A stretch of DNA of 64,000 bases. Source: Chromohalobacter moromii (GTDB lineage: Bacteria > Pseudomonadota > Gammaproteobacteria > Pseudomonadales > Halomonadaceae). This document shows, piece by piece, positions 31,028 through 49,239 of the stretch; the first letter of the stretch is position 1; each line of letters begins with the position of its first letter. The stretch is taken from positions 434,001-498,000 of the forward strand of contig NZ_JAHXDI010000002.1 in NCBI RefSeq assembly GCF_023091865.1. Direction: 5' to 3'. Made by a program: the position numbers and the translations under genes. The notes beneath the pieces are model-generated. The model was given only the letters and a program-made list of their open reading frames with translations. It searched no databases and was not told the DNA's origin.

Positions 31028-31054
31028 GTCTGCGCCTAATCTTGCTTTAACTCT

Positions 31055-31081
31055 CCTTGGCGCCTGGATGGGGCGCCAAGG
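31055..31081. terminator. Bidirectional terminator between cysI and the N-oxygenase gene
   Basis: CCTTGGCGCC pairs with GGCGCCAAGG across a 7-nt loop in the 81-bp gap between two convergent genes. No strong T-tract on either strand, but the position fits termination of both transcripts. Confidence 0.6.
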
Positions 31082-31108
31082 CGTTGCGTCCGGTCGCGCG
31101 ATGTCGTG

Positions 31109-32044
31109 TTATTGGAAAACGAAGCTCGATCCCTCGTGAATGCCGATCTGCCGCAACAGTTTGGCCAGCGCGCTGTAATCGCGAAGCGAGCGTTTCGTGC
31201 GGCTCTTCGCGGCCATGTCTTGCAAGATGCCCTCGCGTTCGGGGATCGCCAGATAGTCGAGAATGGCCCTCCAGAAGCCCACGTCGAGTTCGACGAAGTC
31301 GTCGATGGCGCGCATCAAGTGAGCACGAAAGATGGCTTGCTGTCCGGCACCGAGACGCTCGTAAACGGCGCGGGCGATCTCGCCGAAAATGGCAGCATGC
31401 GAGGCTTCGTCCTGCCGGTGAAGCTCGGTATTCAGACGGTTGAGTGGCTGGATGCTGCGGTCCTGCGAGAGACGTTTCAAGAACACGTTGATGGTCATCT
31501 CGGCCACGGTGGCATAGGCCATGCGGATCAGGGCGAACTCGCGCTCGTTGTCCGCCTTGGAAAGCGCTGTCTCCATGCGCTGCTCGAGCAGAGGCGTGGG
31601 GATGTGCAAGTCATGTAGCTGGTGCTGCCGGCGCGCGCAGTCGCAGACCTCCAAGCACATCAGAATGTGGAACTGCTCGTCCACCTGGGTCTGGGCGATG
31701 GCCTTTTTGGTTACGCTATCGCCGACGCCGGGCAGGGCATCCCGCAGCAGCAACGAGCACATGGGATTGATGACCTTGTCTTCGACGAAGATCGTCTTCT
31801 CGTTGTAGTTGATCCAGGCGCCGGCGAGCACACGGCGCTTGTCCGTTTCGTCGATGGCCTGGAAACGCGGGTCGTCCCAGAAGGGCACCATCGACGGTGG
31901 GAAGTCCGGCGCCGTGGTGTCGTAATAGTCATTAAGGTCGAGCCGTGCCTTGCGCACCGCGACGCGCTGATTCCAGCTCTCGGTGAGGCGCGCGAGTATC
32001 TCGCTTTCATGTGCTGTCGTGGGACTGTCGGTACCGGTGTACAT
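31109..32044 (-). CDS. AurF-type diiron arylamine N-oxygenase
   Basis: A 311 aa ferritin-like diiron enzyme. Every expected AurF ligand can be placed with family spacing: Glu88 (FVEDK), Glu123 and His126 (DEQFH), Glu182 (VAEMT), His209, Glu213 and His216 (LHRQDEASH). AurF turns p-aminobenzoate into p-nitrobenzoate through hydroxylamine; relatives such as CmlI act on related arylamines. It begins 25 bp after pabA, which itself overlaps the fused pabB-pabC gene, so its substrate is very probably p-aminobenzoate or a close derivative. Whether it stops at hydroxylamine, nitroso or nitro cannot be told. A minor alternative is another ferritin-like activity, but the seven-ligand set argues against it. 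Confidence 0.85.
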   Translation of the reverse strand: MYTGTDSPTTAHESEILARLTESWNQRVAVRKARLDLNDYYDTTAPDFPPSMVPFWDDPRFQAIDETDKRRVLAGAWINYNEKTIFVEDKVINPMCSLLLRDALPGVGDSVTKKAIAQTQVDEQFHILMCLEVCDCARRQHQLHDLHIPTPLLEQRMETALSKADNEREFALIRMAYATVAEMTINVFLKRLSQDRSIQPLNRLNTELHRQDEASHAAIFGEIARAVYERLGAGQQAIFRAHLMRAIDDFVELDVGFWRAILDYLAIPEREGILQDMAAKSRTKRSLRDYSALAKLLRQIGIHEGSSFVFQ

Positions 32045-32069
32045 ATGGATCGTTCCCTGAAATATCTAC

Positions 32070-32690
32070 CTAGAAGCCGGCCGCTTTTCCTAGCGATGGG
32101 CGATGTTGATCGAGCCTGCGAAGAAAGTTCGCCAGCATGAGGTGGCCATGCTCGGTGAGGATGGACTCGGGATGAAACTGCACGCCTTCGATGTCCAGGT
32201 CGCGATGCCGGATGCCCATGACGTCCTCGATATTACCCTGTGCGTCACAGGTCCAAGCGCTGATCTCGAAATCGGCGGGCATGCGCTGGCGGGTGACGAT
32301 CAGCGAGTGGTAGCGCGTCACGCGCACCGGTTGGCTGACGCCGGTGAAAACGCCACGTCCGTCGTGGTGAACGTGCGATACCTTGCCGTGCATGACCTCG
32401 CGAGCGTGCTCTATATACCCACCGAAGGCCTCGGCGATCGCTTCGTGACCCAGGCAGATGCCCAGAATCGGGACCTTGCCCGCGTAGGCCTTGATGACCT
32501 CGAGCGTAATGCCGGACTGCGATGGCGTGCAGGGTCCCGGCGAGATCAAGATGCCCTCGATCTCGTGGCTCGCCAATTGGTCAAGCGTCATCGCGTCGTT
32601 CTTGACGATCCAGGGCTGGATGCCCAGTTGGTTGAGGTAGGACACGATGTTGTAGGTGAACGAATCGTAGTTATCAATGAGACACAGCAT
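32070..32690 (-). CDS. pabA: Aminodeoxychorismate synthase glutaminase subunit (PabA)
   Basis: A 206 aa class I glutamine amidotransferase that feeds ammonia to PabB. The catalytic triad is Cys79 (GICLGHEAI), His173 and Glu175 (FHPESILTEHG). The start at 32690 has a perfect AGGAGG seven bases upstream and overlaps the end of the pabB-pabC gene by 17 bp. PabA and TrpG glutaminases look alike, but coupling to a PMKGT-type PabB points to p-aminobenzoate synthesis. It is the middle gene of the operon that ends in the N-oxygenase. Confidence 0.88.
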   Translation of the reverse strand: MLCLIDNYDSFTYNIVSYLNQLGIQPWIVKNDAMTLDQLASHEIEGILISPGPCTPSQSGITLEVIKAYAGKVPILGICLGHEAIAEAFGGYIEHAREVMHGKVSHVHHDGRGVFTGVSQPVRVTRYHSLIVTRQRMPADFEISAWTCDAQGNIEDVMGIRHRDLDIEGVQFHPESILTEHGHLMLANFLRRLDQHRPSLGKAAGF

Positions 32691-34566
32691 AGGTAGCCTC
32701 CTGGCCCGCCCAGGCGGTAAGGGTTTGTATGGCCTGATCGCTGAGCGTGACCGGTATGACGCCACGCACAGCGTTGGTCAGCCATATGGCGTCGGCGTCG
32801 AGTAGATCCCGCGGCGTGATCGGGCGTTCGCAACAGCGCTCGCAACTCGCTTCGATGAGCGTTTCACGGGCGATGCCGGGCAGTACGCCTTCGTCGAGCG
32901 GCGGCGTCAGCAGCAAGCCGTCCTTCTCGATGAACAGGTTATGGCGACTGGCCTCGGTGACCCGGCCTTCGTGGTTGAGAAAGGCTACGTCGTAGTCGCC
33001 TTGAGCCTGGTGTCGTCGATATTCGCTATCGTAGATATCGCGTGCGGTGGTCTTGTACTGCAGCAAGAAGGCGTGCTGGTCGATGGGATGGGCGCTGATG
33101 CCCAGCCGCGCCGCAGATGGCGCTTCGTCATCGGGCTCCAGCGCCGTGGTGGTGATATCGAACTGGCCGTCGTGGGCCAGGGAAAGGCGCACCCGTGTGT
33201 CTTGATCGAGCCCGTCGATGGCCTCGGCAAGAGCCAGGCGGACGCTGGCGGCCGCATAGACGAAGTGTAGATCGCGTGCCGCGTGTGACAGCCGTTGCAG
33301 GTGTTTCTCAAGGTGCTCGATATGGGCGCCATCCGCTCGGTAACGCATGGTCTCTATGAGTTGAAGGTCCTGATTGAGCCCACTCAGGAATCGCGCCTTG
33401 AGCAGGCATTCCTCGTATTCGGCCCCAGGGTCGGACTCATGAAGCACGCCGCCGCCAATCCCCATCTCCGCATGGCCGTCGGCATGCGCGACGCAGGTAC
33501 GGATGGGCACGTTGAAACAGAAATCGTTGTGCGGCGTCAGGTAGCCGATCGCGCCGGTATAGACGCCGCGCGGCTCGCGCTCCAGCTCTTCGATGACCTG
33601 CATCGTGCGTATCTTGGGGGCGCCGGTGATCGAGCCGCAGGGGAATAGCTCGCGGAATACGTGCTCGATCCTGGCGTTGGTGTCGATCTTGCCGGTCACG
33701 GTGGAAATCATCTGATGTAGCGTCTCGAAGGTCTGTATCTCGAACAGGTTCTTGACCGCCACGGAGCCCGGCGAGGCGACGCGGCTGACATCGTTACGCA
33801 GCAAATCGACGATCATTACGTTCTCGGAGCGTGTCTTCGTGTCGTGACGCATCGAATCGAGAATCTCGGCATCCGCTTCGGCCGATGTGCCGCGTGGGAA
33901 AGTGCCCTTCATGGGCTTGGATTCCAGCGCCGTGCCTTGTTTACGCAGGAAGAGTTCCGGCGATAACGACAGCACCGCATACTCCGGGAAGTTGAGCAGT
34001 CCACCGAACTCGACTTTCTGGCGACTACGGAGCTTGCGGTACAGGGCGACGGGCGCGCCTTGATATTCGAAGCGATATTTTAGTGTGTAGTTGACTTGAT
34101 AAGTATCGCCTTCTCGAATATAGGATTTTATTTTTTCGATATTATCGAGATACTCTTCGCGTCGCGCGTTGAGCGCTAAGTGGCGAATGGCCGCGGGTGT
34201 CGTGTCGGGCGTGCGCTCTTCGAGAAGTCGGCTGGCTTGGTGCTGCGACAAACGGCGCACATCGCGAAACGCATAGAAGTGCACGAGTGGGGCATCGCTC
34301 TTAGTGCGTTTGCAGAACTTGAAATCAGGCTTGTCGGCAAGCGCGTAACCCGCTTCGTAGGCGAGATAGCCGCAGACGTAATAACCTTGCTCACGCAACT
34401 CATCGAGCTCGCGCAATGCGCCCTGCAATGCATCGTTGCGGTAACAGATCACTTCGTATTCTGGATTTTCGAACAACAACGAAGCGCGGTGATCGCTTGA
34501 GCAACGGGTATTCTCGAGCAATATGAAGACATTGTCTGTTTGTTGTTTGTTTAGGCTGCGCATCAC
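32674..34566 (-). CDS. pabB: Fused aminodeoxychorismate synthase component I and aminodeoxychorismate lyase (PabB-PabC)
   Basis: A 630 aa bifunctional enzyme for p-aminobenzoate synthesis. Residues about 1-395 are the chorismate-binding PabB part, with Lys220 in PMKGT, the nucleophile that separates ADC synthase from anthranilate synthase (PIAGT), and GSITGAPKIRTMQVIEELE and IGGGVLHESDPGAEYEEC. Residues about 400-630 are a class IV PLP aminotransferase-fold lyase with Lys505 (LQYKTT) and EGRVTEASRHNLFIEKDG. Together with pabA it can make p-aminobenzoate from chorismate without another gene. The start is the first of two ATGs (34566) without a strong Shine-Dalgarno. Its leader is very AT-rich. 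Confidence 0.9.
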   Translation of the reverse strand: MMRSLNKQQTDNVFILLENTRCSSDHRASLLFENPEYEVICYRNDALQGALRELDELREQGYYVCGYLAYEAGYALADKPDFKFCKRTKSDAPLVHFYAFRDVRRLSQHQASRLLEERTPDTTPAAIRHLALNARREEYLDNIEKIKSYIREGDTYQVNYTLKYRFEYQGAPVALYRKLRSRQKVEFGGLLNFPEYAVLSLSPELFLRKQGTALESKPMKGTFPRGTSAEADAEILDSMRHDTKTRSENVMIVDLLRNDVSRVASPGSVAVKNLFEIQTFETLHQMISTVTGKIDTNARIEHVFRELFPCGSITGAPKIRTMQVIEELEREPRGVYTGAIGYLTPHNDFCFNVPIRTCVAHADGHAEMGIGGGVLHESDPGAEYEECLLKARFLSGLNQDLQLIETMRYRADGAHIEHLEKHLQRLSHAARDLHFVYAAASVRLALAEAIDGLDQDTRVRLSLAHDGQFDITTTALEPDDEAPSAARLGISAHPIDQHAFLLQYKTTARDIYDSEYRRHQAQGDYDVAFLNHEGRVTEASRHNLFIEKDGLLLTPPLDEGVLPGIARETLIEASCERCCERPITPRDLLDADAIWLTNAVRGVIPVTLSDQAIQTLTAWAGQEATYAVSH

Positions 34567-34740
34567 CCATGCTCCCTAGTATTAATTATATGTTTATTTA
34601 AGAGTGCGCAGGAGTTTGTGTCAATGGTGATTATATTGGTATTATTATGTAATGCATTTAATGCAAAGAGGTTATTGTGCGTTTAAAATAAAGATTAAAA
34701 ATAGAGTGATAAATCTGCACAGTACGTGGCAGGAAACTAC
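34567..34740. promoter_or_regulatory. AT-rich leader of the pab/N-oxygenase operon
   Basis: About 175 bp upstream of the fused pab gene that is strongly AT-rich (34575-34720), in contrast to the GC-rich surroundings. It contains TATAAT-like and TTTAAA-like stretches and ATGCATTTAATGCA-like repeats at 34651-34665. It probably holds the operon promoter and may attract an H-NS-like silencer. No coding frame seen. Confidence 0.5.
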
Positions 34741-34805: not shown

Positions 34806-35075
34806 TCAGCGTAGCTGGCTATCCTTGCTGCCCCGGCGGTTGTAGCCGCTGGCATCAAGGCGTTCATGCCGGTCACGCTCGCTCTGGCAAGCAATGCACA
34901 GGCGTACCCCAGGTACGGCATCGCGCCGCGCTTGGGGGATAAGATCGCCGCATTCCTCGCAGTGGCTTAGGCTCTCGCCGCTGGGTAGCCGATGGCGCGA
35001 GCGTTGTATAGCGTCCTCGACGGTGCTATCGATCTGCTCCTGTACGGCACCGTCCTTCGACCATCCTCCTGCCAT
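34806..35075 (-). CDS. DksA/TraR-type C4 zinc-finger protein (YbiI-like)
   Basis: An 89 aa protein with the DksA/TraR C4 zinc finger HCEECGDLIPQARRDAVPGVRLCIAC (C39, C42, C60, C63 approximately). It lacks the long coiled-coil of DksA, as in TraR and YbiI. TraR-like proteins bind RNA polymerase through the secondary channel; whether this one does is not shown. It begins about 50 bp downstream of the YdeP-like gene on the same strand. Confidence 0.82.
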   Translation of the reverse strand: MAGGWSKDGAVQEQIDSTVEDAIQRSRHRLPSGESLSHCEECGDLIPQARRDAVPGVRLCIACQSERDRHERLDASGYNRRGSKDSQLR

Positions 35076-35127
35076 GTCATCTCCTCGGCATGTGGCATGC
35101 CGTGCCTGCGGTTGGGCTCATGGGCGC

Positions 35128-37479
35128 TCAACTCGTGGCGAGCATTCCCGTGGCGCTCTCGACTTCTTCGCTCGACATCAGCGATAAGGTGACCGGTATC
35201 GACTTGCCGGCGATGGTATTGCTTTGGCGGTCCCGGTTGGTGACTGGAATCAGGTCGTTCACTTCCGGGTAGTACGCGCCCAGGCAGTTCTCGGGTAAAT
35301 CATAGGCGATGAGCTTGAAACCGGATACCTGGCGTTCGATGCCATCGTCGCTGACGGCGGTCAACGTGACGCGATGTCCCGCCTCGAAGCCGTGTTTCTC
35401 CATGTCCGCGGGATTCATCATCACCACGCTGCGGGTGCCATAAATGTCACGATAGCGATCATCGTATGAATATACGGTGGTGTTGTACTGGTCGTGGCCG
35501 CGGATCGAGAGCAGTTGGAAGTGCGTATCGTCGGGGTCAGAGTCGTCCTCGGTGAGCATGTCGCCGGGGAACAGGAAATTAGCCTTGCCCGAATCGGTGT
35601 GCCAGAGACGGTCACGCGCGGCGATATCGAGATGAAACACGCCTTCGGCGTCGAGCCGGCGGTTGTAGTCGCGAAACGTCTCGGGCTGTGTGGCTTCGAT
35701 CTTGTCGCGAATGCGTGCGTAATCCTCGCATAACCACTCCCAATCGACCTTGGGGTTGGGGGGGAGCGTGGCCCGCGCTAGCCCGGCGACGATGGCGATC
35801 TCCGAACGTAAATGCGGTGAGGCCGGCTCCAGTGCGCCGGTCGAGGCCTGCACGTTGCACATGCCGTCCTCGATGGTGATGGTTTGTTCGACCCCGGCCT
35901 GGACATCTTTCTCGGTACGCGCCAAAGGCGGCAGCAAGTAAGCGGCCTTGCCGTGAAGCAGGTGGCTTCGATTGAGCTTGGTGGCGATCTGCACGGTCAA
36001 CGGAATATGTTTGACGCGTGCGGCGACGCGCGCCTGATCCGAAATCGCACGGAAGAAGTTGCCGCCCATGCCGAGAAAGGCGTCGACCTCGTCGCGCAGG
36101 ATGGCCTCGCAGCATAGCGCGACGTCGTGGCCGTGCTCGCGACGGCAGTCGATGCCGAAGACCTCGTCCAGCTTCGACAGGAACGCCTCGCCGGATTTGT
36201 GAAAGATCCCCACGGTGCGATCGCCCTGGACGTTGGAGTGGCCGCGTACCGGGCAGGCGCCGGCCCCCCGGCGACCGATATGACCGCCCATCAACAGCAG
36301 ATTGAGAATCTGGTGGACGTTGTCGCCACCGCGTATGTGCTGGGTAATGCCCATGCCCCAGCAGCATATAACGCGCTCGGCACGCATCCATGCCGCGGCG
36401 GCGTCCTCCATGGCCGCGCGCTCGAGGCCACTATGCCGTTCGAGACGTTCCCAGGACAGCGCTCGGCAATGCGCAGCGAAGTCATCGAAACCGGCGGTAT
36501 GCATACTGATGAAGTCGTGATCGATCACGCCCCGACGCCCGTCTTGGCGTGCTTGATCGTCGGCCTCCAGAATACGCTTGCACATGCCCTGAATCGCAGC
36601 GATATCCCCACCGATACGCAGTTGATGATATTGGCTGCTGATCGGTACACCGCGGTTGGTCAGCATATCGCGTGGCGTCTGCGGGTTGGCGAACTTGACC
36701 AGCGCTCGCTCGCGCAATGGGTTGAAGGTGATGACTTCCGCCCCTCGCTGGCGCGCCTCATGGAGCAGGCCCATCATGCGCGGGCTGTTGGTGCCGGCGT
36801 TCTGACCGAAGAGGAAGATTGCATCGGCATGCTCGAAGTCTTCCAGCGTGGTGGTGGCCTTGCCCACACCGATGCTCTGGGGGAGCGCCACGGTGGTCGT
36901 CTCGTGACACATGTTGGAACAATCGGGAAAATTGTGCGTGCCGAGCATGCGACCGAATAGCTGCCACAGAAACGCCGCTTCGTTGGAGGTGCGCCCCGAC
37001 GTATAAAGCTCGACTTTCTGAGGATCGTAGGTTTTGAGGCGCTCGCCGATCTCGCGAAAGGCTGTGTCCCAGTCGATGGGATCGTATTTGTCGGTGGTGG
37101 CGTTGTAGCGCATGGGATGCGTCAACCGGCCTTGCTTCTCGAGCGCGTGATCCGACCAGTCAAGAAGTTCGCTCAGCGTGTGTTTGGCGAAGAACTCCGG
37201 GGTGGTGCGTGCCGCCGTAGCTTCCCACGCCACTGCCTTGGCGCCGTTCTCGCAGAATTCCGCCGGGCCGGGCTTTTCAGGATTGGGCCAGGCACAGCTT
37301 GGGCATTCGAATCCGCCCTTGGGTTGATTGATCTTCAGCATCAAGGAATTGCCCTTGAAGGGCACTTTCTCGCGCAGAAAGTGCGTCTCGGTGGCTTGGA
37401 TCGATTGCCAGCCTCCACCCGGGGCATCGTGCGCACTTTGCTGGCCGTGTACTGCATCATCCGTGAGCGAACGTGCCAT
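35128..37479 (-). CDS. ydeP: FdhF/YdeP-type molybdopterin oxidoreductase
   Basis: A 783 aa molybdopterin-guanine-dinucleotide oxidoreductase of the YdeP family. The N-terminus has Cys59, Cys62 and Cys76 (CPSC...FCENG), and the predicted Mo-ligand cysteine is Cys191 in DCSNMCHETT, at the position of selenocysteine in FdhF. Further signatures are GQNAGTNSPRMMGLLHEA and CWGMGITQHIRGGDNVHQILNLLLMGGHIGRRGAG. Members are linked to acid resistance in enterobacteria, but the substrate is unknown. The ATG at 37479 has GGAGGAG upstream. No small electron-transfer subunit is encoded beside it. Molybdate importer genes lie 15 kb away. Confidence 0.86.
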   Translation of the reverse strand: MARSLTDDAVHGQQSAHDAPGGGWQSIQATETHFLREKVPFKGNSLMLKINQPKGGFECPSCAWPNPEKPGPAEFCENGAKAVAWEATAARTTPEFFAKHTLSELLDWSDHALEKQGRLTHPMRYNATTDKYDPIDWDTAFREIGERLKTYDPQKVELYTSGRTSNEAAFLWQLFGRMLGTHNFPDCSNMCHETTTVALPQSIGVGKATTTLEDFEHADAIFLFGQNAGTNSPRMMGLLHEARQRGAEVITFNPLRERALVKFANPQTPRDMLTNRGVPISSQYHQLRIGGDIAAIQGMCKRILEADDQARQDGRRGVIDHDFISMHTAGFDDFAAHCRALSWERLERHSGLERAAMEDAAAAWMRAERVICCWGMGITQHIRGGDNVHQILNLLLMGGHIGRRGAGACPVRGHSNVQGDRTVGIFHKSGEAFLSKLDEVFGIDCRREHGHDVALCCEAILRDEVDAFLGMGGNFFRAISDQARVAARVKHIPLTVQIATKLNRSHLLHGKAAYLLPPLARTEKDVQAGVEQTITIEDGMCNVQASTGALEPASPHLRSEIAIVAGLARATLPPNPKVDWEWLCEDYARIRDKIEATQPETFRDYNRRLDAEGVFHLDIAARDRLWHTDSGKANFLFPGDMLTEDDSDPDDTHFQLLSIRGHDQYNTTVYSYDDRYRDIYGTRSVVMMNPADMEKHGFEAGHRVTLTAVSDDGIERQVSGFKLIAYDLPENCLGAYYPEVNDLIPVTNRDRQSNTIAGKSIPVTLSLMSSEEVESATGMLATS

Positions 37480-37634
37480 GCTGACTCCTCCTGCGGTCAC
37501 CCACCTACGAAGAATACGATACGTCGCGAACTCATCGTATGGTGGCTAGTAAGTATGTGACTAGCGAGTATGGCAACGAAAAAACGATCTTGCAGGGCCG
37601 ATAAGGGAGAAGTGGAGGAAAGGATAGGGAAGCG

Positions 37635-46310: not shown

Positions 46311-48362
46311 TCAGGCGGTCTTGGCCGTGGCAGTAGCCGGTGTCTGACGTTCGGCCATGACCTCGGCCTGTCGTTCCAGCACCAAGACGAGTCGCTCGAT
46401 CAAGCCTTCGATGAGCTTGCGCGCGTCTTCTTCGATGCCGCCATGGCGTGCGATGGCGTCGTCCAGGGCTTGGCCGGCCTCGCTTATTCCCTGGGGCGAG
46501 CGGCCATGGGCACTGTCCTCGAAGCCGTCGGCCAGCGTGTCCAGAAGATGTCGCATGGCGTCGCGCGCTGGCGCTGGTGCGTCTTCCAGTCGGTGGCGCA
46601 GGCGCAAGCACGAGCGACCCAGGTCGAGGCCATTGAGGCCGATCATGAATAAGTGACGATGATCCTCGGGCAGCATGTCGTCGTGCCGTGCGAGTTGCAG
46701 CAGGCGGTCGGCCATGCGACCGCTGAAGCGGCTTTCGGCTTCATGCAAAGGCTGCTGATCGATATACCGCAGGTCGTGGCTGATGGCGCCGATCAAACGC
46801 CGCCGCCGGATCGGTGCTCCCAGACCGGGGAACAGGCGGAACCCCATCACCACGGCGCTGAGTCCAACGATGACGGCGATGGCACGATTGGCGAAGCTAT
46901 CAAAAGAAAAGTCCATCCCATTGCCGGGCATGGTCAGCAGAATGTTGAAGATAGTGAAGGCCAGACAATAACCCATCAAGCGCGGGTTGGAGGCGCCAAG
47001 CAGCCCCAGGAAAAGCGGCGTGACGAAGAGCATGGCGAGCATGGGAAAGCCGTTGGCTTGCGAGAGCAACACATGGCCGAATAGGAAGGCGCTGGGTAAT
47101 GCGGCCAGCATACCTTTGAAGAACATCATGCAGATCGTCACGGGATTATCGCGGGTGGCGAAAAACGCCGAGAACAGAGTACCTAGTAGCATCGCGACCT
47201 GGCCGTTGTTCCAGTGCGTCTGCAACCAGAAGAGGGCCAGGCACGAAAAGACCAGTCCCGCGCGGCCGGCATTGAGCAACGCTACCAGATGGTCGCGATG
47301 CCAGGACAGCGAGCCGCCGCGTAGCTGCTTGCGTCCGGGATGGGCGATGGCCTCGCGCGCGTCGAGCATGATCATGGCATGACCGAGTACCTCGCGCAGC
47401 GCCAGAAGCACACGGCGCTGCAAGGGGTCGAGTTGCGTGTCGGCATAGCCGTGAGCGCGCTTGCGCAGGTCCTGTAGTTGGCGGCGTGCGGCGGGCACGC
47501 CTTTCACGTGCTCGGCGTTGCGAAAGCCGTCGGCGATTTCGTTGGCCAACTGGTGCAGGGGCGCGCTGATGCGCTCGCGATGATCGTGCAGCAACTGATA
47601 AAGCGCGCCTAGCGTGGCGAAGAAACGCAACGTGCGCCGGGTGAGCACATGCGTCGCGCGGATGCGGCCGGCGCCATCGGGGCCTTCGTAGCGGGCCGCC
47701 TGGCTGTCGGTTTCGAGCATCGTCAGCGGTTCGAGACTGGCGGTTAACGAGTGCTGCATGGCGTCCAGGCCATCGCCGGCGTCGAGGTGCTGACTGGCAT
47801 GTGTGAAGGCTTGGTTGATCACCTCGTCGGCCTGATTGGCCAAGTGATCCTTGACGCGCGTGGGCCACAGCAAGGCACTGACCAGGGTGGCGCACAGCGC
47901 CCCGAGGCCGAGTTCGGAGAGTCGCGCCACGGCGATGTCGAAGATGCCGCTGGGGGGCTGGTTGGCGGAAATCACCACGATCAGCATCGCGGTCACGGCG
48001 CCCATGATGCAGCCATAGGAGAAGTTGTTGCGCAACAGCGAGCTGCCGTAGGCGCAGAACATGATCCACAGCGTCAGCGCAATCAGAGCGGGCACACGCG
48101 CCTGGGCGAAGAAGGCCATGATGACAATGCCGACCAGCGCACCGATGAGCGTGCCGCCGATCTGGCAAATGCCCTTCTCGACGACCATGCCGCTCATTGG
48201 GCGGATCTGCAGAAAAGCTGCCGAGATCAACGCCCAATAAGGACGGTCGAGATCGCACCATAGTGCGATGTAAAGCGCCAGCAGCATCGCCAGGGTAGTC
48301 TTGGTGGCGAACTGCAGTGACGCCTTCGAGGGAGTGAGATAGGTTTCGATCCAGGGCGACAT
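46311..48362 (-). CDS. AaeB-like FUSC-family aromatic acid exporter
   Basis: A 683 aa inner-membrane protein of the FUSC/AaeB family, with two clusters of membrane helices separated by long cytoplasmic segments. The first cluster (ATKTTLAMLLALYIALWCDL onward) and the second (near residue 370, AGLVFSCLALFWLQTHWNNG) have the repeated AaeB pattern. With the HlyD-type adaptor and DUF1656 protein upstream it forms an AaeXAB efflux unit. In E. coli AaeAB exports p-hydroxybenzoate and related acids. It starts 7 bp after aaeA. Confidence 0.86.
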   Translation of the reverse strand: MSPWIETYLTPSKASLQFATKTTLAMLLALYIALWCDLDRPYWALISAAFLQIRPMSGMVVEKGICQIGGTLIGALVGIVIMAFFAQARVPALIALTLWIMFCAYGSSLLRNNFSYGCIMGAVTAMLIVVISANQPPSGIFDIAVARLSELGLGALCATLVSALLWPTRVKDHLANQADEVINQAFTHASQHLDAGDGLDAMQHSLTASLEPLTMLETDSQAARYEGPDGAGRIRATHVLTRRTLRFFATLGALYQLLHDHRERISAPLHQLANEIADGFRNAEHVKGVPAARRQLQDLRKRAHGYADTQLDPLQRRVLLALREVLGHAMIMLDAREAIAHPGRKQLRGGSLSWHRDHLVALLNAGRAGLVFSCLALFWLQTHWNNGQVAMLLGTLFSAFFATRDNPVTICMMFFKGMLAALPSAFLFGHVLLSQANGFPMLAMLFVTPLFLGLLGASNPRLMGYCLAFTIFNILLTMPGNGMDFSFDSFANRAIAVIVGLSAVVMGFRLFPGLGAPIRRRRLIGAISHDLRYIDQQPLHEAESRFSGRMADRLLQLARHDDMLPEDHRHLFMIGLNGLDLGRSCLRLRHRLEDAPAPARDAMRHLLDTLADGFEDSAHGRSPQGISEAGQALDDAIARHGGIEEDARKLIEGLIERLVLVLERQAEVMAERQTPATATAKTA

Positions 48363-48369
48363 GGGCGGC

Positions 48370-49239
48370 TCAGTCGGCGTCCGTGTCGTCGACGATGTGG
48401 ATGGTGGCGGTCATGCCGGCACTGAGCAGCGTCTCGTCGGGGACTTCATCGAGCTCGATGCGCACCGGAATCCGCTGCGCTAGCCTGACCCAATTGAAGG
48501 TGGGTTCGACTTGGGGCAAGAGCTGATCGTTGGGTGAGGTATTGCTATTGGCGATCCCGCGACCGACTCCCGTGACATGGCCACGCAATTCGGTATCGCC
48601 GTTCATCAGCGTAATCCTGGCGGTGTCGCCTTCATCGATACGCGGCATCTTGGTCTCTTCGAAATACCCGGTCACATAGTAGGAATCCGATTTGACCAGC
48701 GCCATCACCGCATTGCCGGCCGAGACGTAGTTGCCCTCGGTAAGACGCAGATTGAGGATATGCCCGTCGGCGGGCGCCTCGACCACGGTGCGCTTCAGGT
48801 CGAGCTGGGCGCTTTCCAGGTTGGCCTGGGCCTCGTCGAGATTGGCTTTTGCCACGCGGGTATCGATGCGCGCGACTTCGCGATCCTCGCTGCTGATGGC
48901 CTGATTGCTCAAGTTGTTGCGCCGGTTCTCCTCGTGTCGTTTGAGCTCCAACTGCGCCTGGTTCAACGCGACCACGGCCTGGGCCTTGTTGACGGCAGTT
49001 TGGTAACGCGCCTGATCGATCTGGAACAGGGTGTCGCCTTGCTCGACCTTTTGCGTGTCGCTCACCGGCAGCTGGCGCACCCAGCCCGAGACATCCGGGG
49101 CGATCGTGATGACGTCGGCGCGAACGCGGCCATCGCGGGTCCACGGCGTATACAGGTAGTAATGCCAGAGCCAGACGCCGGCAGCGACGGCCAGTGCCAC
49201 GACAACGAGAGTGATCAGCATGCGTAGCGGTGTGCGCAT
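48370..49239 (-). CDS. HlyD-family periplasmic adaptor (AaeA-like)
   Basis: A 289 aa membrane-fusion protein. An N-terminal anchor (LITLVVVALAVAAGVWLWHY) is followed by the lipoyl half-motifs (DVSGWVRQLPVSDTQKVEQGD and VEAPADGHILNLRLTEGNYV) flanking a coiled-coil hairpin, and by a beta-barrel. It couples the FUSC exporter to an outer channel. Start and stop abut DUF1656 and FUSC genes. An outer-membrane TolC partner is not in the window. Confidence 0.87.
   Translation of the reverse strand: MRTPLRMLITLVVVALAVAAGVWLWHYYLYTPWTRDGRVRADVITIAPDVSGWVRQLPVSDTQKVEQGDTLFQIDQARYQTAVNKAQAVVALNQAQLELKRHEENRRNNLSNQAISSEDREVARIDTRVAKANLDEAQANLESAQLDLKRTVVEAPADGHILNLRLTEGNYVSAGNAVMALVKSDSYYVTGYFEETKMPRIDEGDTARITLMNGDTELRGHVTGVGRGIANSNTSPNDQLLPQVEPTFNWVRLAQRIPVRIELDEVPDETLLSAGMTATIHIVDDTDAD

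Follow-up and report, generated by a model that had tools for sequence, protein, structure and literature searches.

A three-gene p-aminobenzoate synthase and diiron N-oxygenase operon, conserved in Chromohalobacter, suggests a short route to an N-oxidised benzoate

Introduction

N-oxidation of p-aminobenzoate and other arylamines is familiar mainly from large gene clusters for antibiotics. What is made by an operon that joins a p-aminobenzoate synthase to a diiron N-oxygenase and holds no further gene? The question is raised by a 64,000-nucleotide stretch of Chromohalobacter moromii DNA (contig NZ_JAHXDI010000002.1, positions 434,001 to 498,000; the window), where the open reading frame (ORF) list gives three co-directional genes at 31109–34566 of the minus strand: a fused pabBC, pabA and a diiron N-oxygenase gene. 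A first-pass annotation of the window had proposed a self-contained route from chorismate through p-aminobenzoate to an N-oxygenated benzoate. We examined if this proposal stands, and our reading is of a dedicated, genus-wide operon that probably leads from chorismate through p-aminobenzoate to an N-oxidised benzoate as the likely end product, or nearly so. The enzymes are ordinary; the arrangement is unusual, closed and conserved. Beneath this reading lie the genes and motifs present, the class of the predicted fold, the duplicated pab genes, conservation, selection, operon boundaries and a matching cassette in Burkholderia glumae. Papers are cited by PMC number.

Results

The operon encodes a second p-aminobenzoate synthase

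The operon and its edges comprise the following features of the window.

32674–34566, minus strand: pabBC, fused aminodeoxychorismate synthase component I and aminodeoxychorismate lyase-like pyridoxal phosphate (PLP) domain (GTG start, 630 aa; PF00425 and PF01063)
32070–32690, minus strand: pabA, glutamine amidotransferase subunit (206 aa from the ATG at 32690; PF00117; overlaps pabBC)
31109–32044, minus strand: AurF-family (PF11583) ferritin-like diiron N-oxygenase (311 aa; seven metal ligands present)
34567–34660, minus strand: AT-rich region 5' of pabBC, candidate promoter/operator (blocks CCAATATAA at 34639–34631 and TTGACA at 34624–34619)
31028–31108, no strand: convergent junction of operon and cysI, 81 bp, left edge of the slot holding the operon

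The tight packing noted in the first-pass annotation was reproduced from the ORF coordinates, with a 17-bp overlap of pabBC and pabA (for which the ORF list also gives a longer GTG form of 231 aa) and a 25-bp gap between pabA and the N-oxygenase gene; co-transcription of the three genes is predicted. The two upstream blocks (34619–34640) were kept in 9/9 aligned Chromohalobacter upstream regions while the surrounding DNA diverges, and they probably belong to a promoter or operator of the operon; a promoter consensus scan of the upstream region called none on the operon strand. Base composition was uninformative as to horizontal transfer, the G+C of the operon genes (0.59–0.61) being close to that of the window (0.61).

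PabBC matched PF00425 (Chorismate_bind) and PF01063 (Aminotran_4), and PabA matched PF00117 (GATase), all above the Pfam cut-off. PabBC scored 374.8 bits with the TIGR00553 pabB equivalog model (cut-off 328.4), and PabA 233.6 bits with TIGR00566 trpG_papA (cut-off 121.05), a model that does not separate PabA from TrpG. A lysine in P(I/M)KGT, where TrpE has alanine, is the established separator of PabB from TrpE; PabBC has K220 in PMKGT, and the TrpE and folate-type PabB of the same genome read PIAGT and PIKGT, respectively. The catalytic Cys-His-Glu set of PabA is present as C79/H173/E175. In the C-terminal half of PabBC, K505 (in QYKTT) is a candidate PLP lysine; its Aminotran_4 domain belongs to class IV, which includes transaminases, and no lyase-specific NCBIfam model was among the matches listed (25 of 47). 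The K220 motif, the PLP domain and the three PabA residues were thus all as the first-pass annotation had them. PabA and PabBC very probably form a p-aminobenzoate synthase set, to judge from these models and motifs, with lyase activity predicted for the PabC half.

The C. moromii genome (3.47 Mb, six contigs) holds elsewhere a second, folate-type pabB (region L044); in L042 a separate pabC has fabF-, mltG- and tmk-like neighbours, and L045 has trpE and trpG. The names of the separate pabB, the separate pabC and the L042 neighbours are readings of translations. Because of these genes the operon is considered a second, dedicated p-aminobenzoate set, presumably not required for folate. The most improbable of the accounts considered here is that it serves as an overflow or backup supply of p-aminobenzoate for folate, with the N-oxygenase as brake or detoxifier. 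That account would fit pab enzymes of ordinary sequence, and fused PabBC of the same kind found in several proteobacterial genomes distant from their AurF-family gene; the separate pabB, pabC and trpG speak against it, as does the position of the N-oxygenase behind the synthase, where it would destroy the vitamin precursor. The PabBC tree separated the cassette PabBC from four other fused PabBC (split support 85/94), which is a hint only, as the tree included one misframed row (BSRS46).

The third gene encodes a diiron enzyme of the AurF family

The N-oxygenase scored 131.8 bits with PF11583 (cut-off 29.6; E 3.5e-38), and the family and motif assignments of the operon are far beyond chance. 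Residues E88, E123, H126, E182, H209, E213 and H216 align with E101, E136, H139, E196, H223, E227 and H230 of AurF (chain numbering of the AurF structure), and these seven metal-ligand columns are invariant in 26/26 aligned family members, so that all seven iron ligands claimed for the enzyme were found. They are of the kind described for ferritin-like diiron oxygenases (FDOs) and FDO N-oxygenases, i.e., six carboxylate/His ligands and a seventh His (PMC13061610). Structure prediction, suggested earlier as a check, gave an AlphaFold2 model (14-row alignment) with pLDDT 84.7 and pTM 0.82. Foldseek returned nine matches from the Protein Data Bank (PDB) at E<=0.001, all CmlI or AurF chains (5hyh, 2jcd and 3chh among them) with TM ~0.8 and identity of 28–32%; matches beyond CmlI/AurF had E 0.017 or worse. 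The predicted fold is AurF/CmlI-like, in agreement with the earlier claim at the level of fold and of sequence-aligned ligands, and arylamine N-oxygenation is the predicted activity. AurF residues R96, N200 and R302, which we take to line the AurF pocket, correspond in the alignment to K83, N186 and R288; as a substrate signature this trio was rejected, K83 and R288 occurring in all of the sister loci described below except Pseudoalteromonas, and N186 in most of them, which makes it not diagnostic for p-aminobenzoate.

The operon is confined to Chromohalobacter and is conserved there

The N-oxygenase was present in all ten Chromohalobacter genomes and in none of 48 other sampled genomes of the family and order. 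A family search matched 11 of 275 genomes, these being the ten Chromohalobacter and one distant homologue (31% identity), with orthologues in 0/265 other genomes; besides the C. moromii genome, the class sample (369 genomes, E<=1e-20) gave one match and the phylum sample (398 genomes, E<=1e-10) two, all distant. In the Halomonadaceae survey proposed earlier, the operon comes out as a trait of a single genus and not of the family (10/275 family genomes). Absence or splitting in all close relatives, the outcome named in the first-pass annotation as speaking against its proposal, was not what was found: the operon is intact in 9/10 Chromohalobacter genomes (the window, L012–L018 and G006), intactness in G006 (region L051) being read from one unbroken tblastn match per gene. 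The tenth, C. israelensis DSM 6768, carries the following insertion sequence (IS).

L019 6987–7991 (same as L100): IS30-like element inside C. israelensis DSM 6768 pabBC, a natural interruption of the operon

The element, with a 334-codon transposase gene from whose translation the family name was read, splits pabBC at about residue 216; pabA and the N-oxygenase gene are open. Relative to the window, dN/dS was 0.066–0.132 for the N-oxygenase (8 relatives), 0.038–0.117 for pabA (8 relatives) and 0.073–0.116 for pabBC (7 relatives), G006 being left out for all genes and L019 for pabBC; the operon is under strong purifying selection. These data bear upon the very improbable account that the operon is decaying, left over from a larger cluster whose assembly line was lost, and now has little function. 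B. glumae does carry a larger form (below) and C. israelensis its IS30-like insertion; against decay stand the nine intact genomes, the dN/dS values (0.04–0.13) and an operon location identical in the seven genomes compared below.

Two of the distant homologues have their own surroundings. The one homologue from the other 265 family genomes searched (L057 9530–10366; AurF family, 31%) has small biosynthetic-looking neighbours, including an aminotransferase-like one, as read from translations. In the class sample, the AurF-family gene of L050 (7330–10625) has behind it amidotransferase-, rubredoxin- and FAD-reductase-like genes (named from translations), a group that presumably resembles the dnf genes for direct ammonia oxidation.

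The operon fills a variable slot free of assembly-line genes

Flanks were compared in seven Chromohalobacter genomes (the window, L012, L013, L015, L051, L100 and L101). The operon position was the same in all seven: cysJI converges on it from one side, and on the other it adjoins a glcG-like gene (named from its translation) and glcF-glcE. In L013, L015, L051 and L101 a DksA-like gene, a YdeP-like gene or both lie between operon and glcG-like gene; neither is present in L012 (C. canadensis) or L100 (C. israelensis, with the IS element), where only the operon genes fill the slot from cysI to the glcG-like gene. In these two the operon is separated from the glcG-like gene by ~400 bp with no ORF >48 codons, and from cysI by ~75 bp (L012) or <50 bp (L100; the ORF scan of the cysI side did not include this region). 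The regions fetched from four further Halomonadaceae genera in which cysI was matched (one region ends at a contig edge) have cysJI, and the operon was not found in them; in one of the four, other genes occupy the 5.4 kb that separate cysI from the glcG-like gene. From this comparison of flanks across Chromohalobacter and other genera, the operon is taken to be a separate unit of three genes within a slot whose content varies. In the window itself, 34806–37500 holds a DksA-like zinc-finger gene and a YdeP/FdhF-type oxidoreductase gene, each variably present at that spot across the genus.

As the first-pass annotation had stated, no polyketide synthase (PKS), nonribosomal peptide synthetase (NRPS) or tailoring gene linked to the operon was seen, either in the slot or among the 20 genes of the window that were compared with protein-family models; nor was a user of the operon product apparent among those 20 genes. 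Neither a CoA ligase nor a carrier protein is encoded in the slot, and a genome-wide search of C. moromii found no NRPS condensation domain. With assembly-line and tailoring genes missing from the operon and condensation domains not found in the genome, the predicted end product or near-end product is the N-oxidised benzoate itself.

The same data bear on a rather unlikely account, in which the operon feeds a p-aminobenzoate unit, N-oxidised or plain, to a pathway elsewhere, e.g., as aryl polyene starter or for an ester or amide. Split biosynthetic clusters are common, and in B. glumae the same cassette directly precedes an NRPS/PKS. An aryl polyene cluster was reported in 3/3 Chromohalobacter strains, two of which (11-W and 296-RDG) carry the operon here, and the part of the table available from that source lists no NRPS or PKS class for these strains (PMC10093197). 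A starter-unit role is disfavoured by the genome without a detected condensation domain and by the slot without CoA ligase or carrier protein.

An AaeXAB-type pump had been placed 12 kb from the operon. AaeA- and AaeB-like genes do lie ~11.7 kb away (46311–49239), but scored below the cut-off of their models (279.6 vs 400 and 137.9 vs 870 bits), and they are not linked to the operon, as a glycolate-oxidase (glcFED) and lactate-permease locus intervenes.

A matching cassette occurs in Burkholderia glumae

The plasmid survey examined six regions (H1, H2, H4, H7, H8 and H9, with H7 and H8 lacking annotation) of 11 plasmid records, leaving out H3, H5, H6, H10 and H11. Plasmid NZ_CP100299.1 of B. 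glumae SL-2395S (L048) carries pabB(C) (608 codons, fused by alignment), pabA and a diiron oxygenase gene in the same order and orientation, with identities to Chromohalobacter of 44% (pabBC), 53% (pabA) and 44% (N-oxygenase). The cassette is followed by a 12.4-kb NRPS/PKS, a second ketosynthase (KS) protein, a ClpP-type protease-subunit gene and a major facilitator superfamily (MFS) efflux gene (L048 13485–32855; L081 26964–33655). That the ClpP-type gene confers self-resistance is speculation, and no paper on this nitroaryl-type cluster was found in the literature search. The cassette is an independent tie of the N-oxygenase to p-aminobenzoate; it exists both alone and ahead of an NRPS/PKS. 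Among ten other family regions, pab genes were present in three, namely B. glumae L048, the chloramphenicol-type Rhodococcus region L049 and an Embleya AurF-like region (L078), the latter two having them further away in another arrangement; they were not found in L047, L050, L055, L056, L057, L079 and L080. Of these, the Pantoea agglomerans plasmid region L079 (7414–13197) has an AurF-family gene with arylamine N-acetyltransferase, hydrolase, MFS, iron-sulfur and ATP-grasp genes.

In the N-oxygenase tree, B. glumae, Pseudoalteromonas, Chromohalobacter and a PKS/hydrazine-type group form one clade (support 98/94 in the first tree and 95/90 in the second), with B. glumae deepest; long branches were flagged for B. 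glumae and Pseudoalteromonas, the second tree was built after removal of four distant rows, and the clade tested in it was chosen with the first tree already in view.

Sister loci and other observations that count against the proposed route

Several observations count against an N-oxidised benzoate as the product of a dedicated operon. The enzyme reached 174.7 bits (E 2.4e-51) with the NCBIfam AurF model NF045603 (4-aminobenzoate N-oxygenase), far below the cut-off of 620, and for this reason is not to be called an AurF ortholog; by sequence it is a distinct subfamily, and the earlier label "AurF-type" holds for family, ligands and fold but not for orthology. A pattern search found ten sister loci outside Chromohalobacter (N-oxygenase identity 44–54%), none with pab genes within the 12–21 kb around each; all but that of Pseudoalteromonas (9/10) share >=2 neighbours with a Stappia/Pseudovibrio cluster, 8/10 having the Stappia alpha/beta-hydrolase and 6/10 its KS (the two Stappia loci counted). 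The Stappia loci (L027 and L028; 2/10) have a Lys N-oxygenase, an FAD oxidase, a cupin-MetRS and an AMP ligase, i.e., hydrazine/hydrazone-type genes. With sister loci that lack pab genes and lie in other clusters, the substrate of the N-oxygenase is not readable from its family alone. A grouping of B. glumae and Chromohalobacter as nearest kin was rejected (approximately unbiased test, p 0.003), which tentatively, given the long branches, makes the pab linkage ancestral to the clade or gained twice. The split pabBC of C. israelensis makes the pathway dispensable in that one species. A consumer of the product may be encoded elsewhere in the genome, where genome-wide searches covered condensation domains and PnbB (4-hydroxylaminobenzoate lyase, PF16155, which would convert the operon product to protocatechuate); PnbB gave no match, nor did it in the control genomes.

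The sister loci lend something to a very unlikely account in which the N-oxygenase is chiefly a hydrazine/hydrazone-type oxidase, perhaps like its sister clade or Dob3, with the pab genes there for another purpose. The nearest relatives outside the genus (44–54%) do lie in other clusters, two with hydrazine-type genes, and Dob3 of Nocardia, an AurF/CmlI-family enzyme with seven ligands, oxidises hydrazones (PMC13061610); by analogy, part of the sister group may act on hydrazone-like substrates. Against this account, queries with Lys N-oxygenase, cupin-MetRS, FAD oxidase and AMP ligase matched no linked hydrazine/hydrazone gene in 20.9 kb around the C. canadensis operon (L012), where only the N-oxygenase matched; pab genes are linked to the enzyme in B. 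glumae as well, whose branch falls outside the group with the Stappia enzymes; and Dob3 is reported to be 47% identical to CmlI and 31% to AurF (PMC13061610).

The sister loci also have features of their own. L027 (5180–19291), L028, L023, L024–L026 and L047 hold a proteobacterial type II PKS-like cluster (acyl carrier protein (ACP), KS, second KS-like protein, alpha/beta-hydrolase, short-chain dehydrogenase/reductase and dehydratase) with an AurF-family enzyme. The Stappia-type cluster is a candidate hydrazone or diazo pathway from its gene content, its oxidase lying in a clade apart from CmlI, which Dob3 reportedly resembles. The Pseudovibrio locus has a Lys N-oxygenase at its edge. A Burkholderia stagnalis plasmid has an AMP ligase, GNAT, C45 peptidase, ferredoxin, ferredoxin reductase, two ACPs and two KS-like proteins, and its stretch gave no Lys N-oxygenase or cupin-MetRS match. 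Pseudoalteromonas sp. S16_S37 (L029 1226–2158) has a lone AurF-family gene (44% identity) near a contig end beside transposase-like ORFs, and no full-length fused PabBC match was found in its genome.

Discussion

For the route from chorismate to an N-oxidised benzoate, which we still favour, the steps would be as follows. PabA and PabB would convert chorismate and glutamine to aminodeoxychorismate, from which the fused PabC domain would release p-aminobenzoate; the diiron N-oxygenase, using O2 and an electron donor encoded outside the operon, would then form 4-hydroxylamino-, 4-nitroso- or 4-nitrobenzoate, and this compound, or a simple coupling product such as an azoxy dimer, would be the end or near-end product. 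Relatives end at the hydroxylamine (BezJ), nitroso (AzoC) or nitro (AurF, CmlI) level, and p-nitrosobenzoate gives the azoxy dimer with NAD+/NADH and no enzyme required (PMC6783550). Of the self-contained route proposed at the outset, the gene content, the motifs and the freedom from a linked assembly line stand; substrate, oxidation level, export, product fate and role are predictions from sequence. A literature search covering titles and abstract openings, with most subscription journals outside its reach, found no description of the operon or of a Chromohalobacter N-oxygenase. A transcriptome paper was set aside as evidence for the operon, the sole "N-oxygenase" in its available text being a cited reference (PMC9279137).

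An allelochemical role of the product is possible by analogy. 4-Nitrobenzoate inhibits Coq2 competitively and is depicted as a Coq2/UbiA inhibitor (PMC5479927). That the whole genus secretes 4-nitrobenzoate (or nitroso- or azoxy-benzoate) from a three-gene pathway against ubiquinone biosynthesis is unlikely; if true, 4-nitrobenzoate would strike ubiquinone-dependent competitors and grazers in brines, and would be a minimal nitroaromatic natural product made without an assembly line. The operon would in itself lead to an N-oxidised benzoate by a short natural route, simple to delete or to rebuild in E. coli, and would offer a small metabolite to seek by mass, a candidate halophile biocatalyst and a test of allelochemical action on quinone synthesis.

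The N-oxygenases for p-aminobenzoate in the literature covered here serve larger natural-product clusters, from which a closed three-gene operon differs. AurF functions inside a polyketide cluster. The AurF of Streptomyces thioluteus (aureothin; PDB 3chh and 2jcd) resembles our enzyme in fold, seven ligands and presumed substrate, p-aminobenzoate, and differs in being of another subfamily (~33% identity). CmlI (chloramphenicol; PDB 5hyg and 5hyh), the top match by sequence and structure search, shares fold and ligands at 29% identity. A linked PKS or NRPS using a nitroaryl unit, as in clusters of aureothin or chloramphenicol type, was not found at the operon; the genes of a hydrazone/diazo cluster of dob type were likewise not found in the C. 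canadensis 20.9 kb, and are present around the Stappia homologues. The Rhodococcus H-CA8f homologue (L049) shares ligands and family at 33% identity, and its neighbours are an AMP-binding protein, an MBL-fold hydrolase, a pabA-pabB fusion and a chloramphenicol efflux gene.

The next systems are likened by description alone. CysR (cystobactamid), shown by deletion to be a p-aminobenzoate N-oxygenase, belongs to a large NRPS cluster (PMC7966384). AzoC (azoxymycins), which stops at nitroso, and BezJ, which on p-aminobenzoate stops at the hydroxylamine, are also diiron arylamine N-oxygenases, AzoC being 53% identical to CmlI vs 37% to AurF (PMC6783550). ObaC (obafluorin, Pseudomonas), an AurF-related diiron oxygenase (25% to AurF) and proposed nitroaryl maker, differs in its proposed product, 4-nitrophenylpyruvate (PMC5490192), and Dob3 in its two-electron hydrazone oxidation within a hydrazone cluster (PMC13061610). 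PMC10724926 was rejected as a source, since its available text concerns another enzyme family. The B. glumae cassette has the same three genes in the same order and orientation; there it heads an NRPS/PKS, and the Chromohalobacter operon stands alone.

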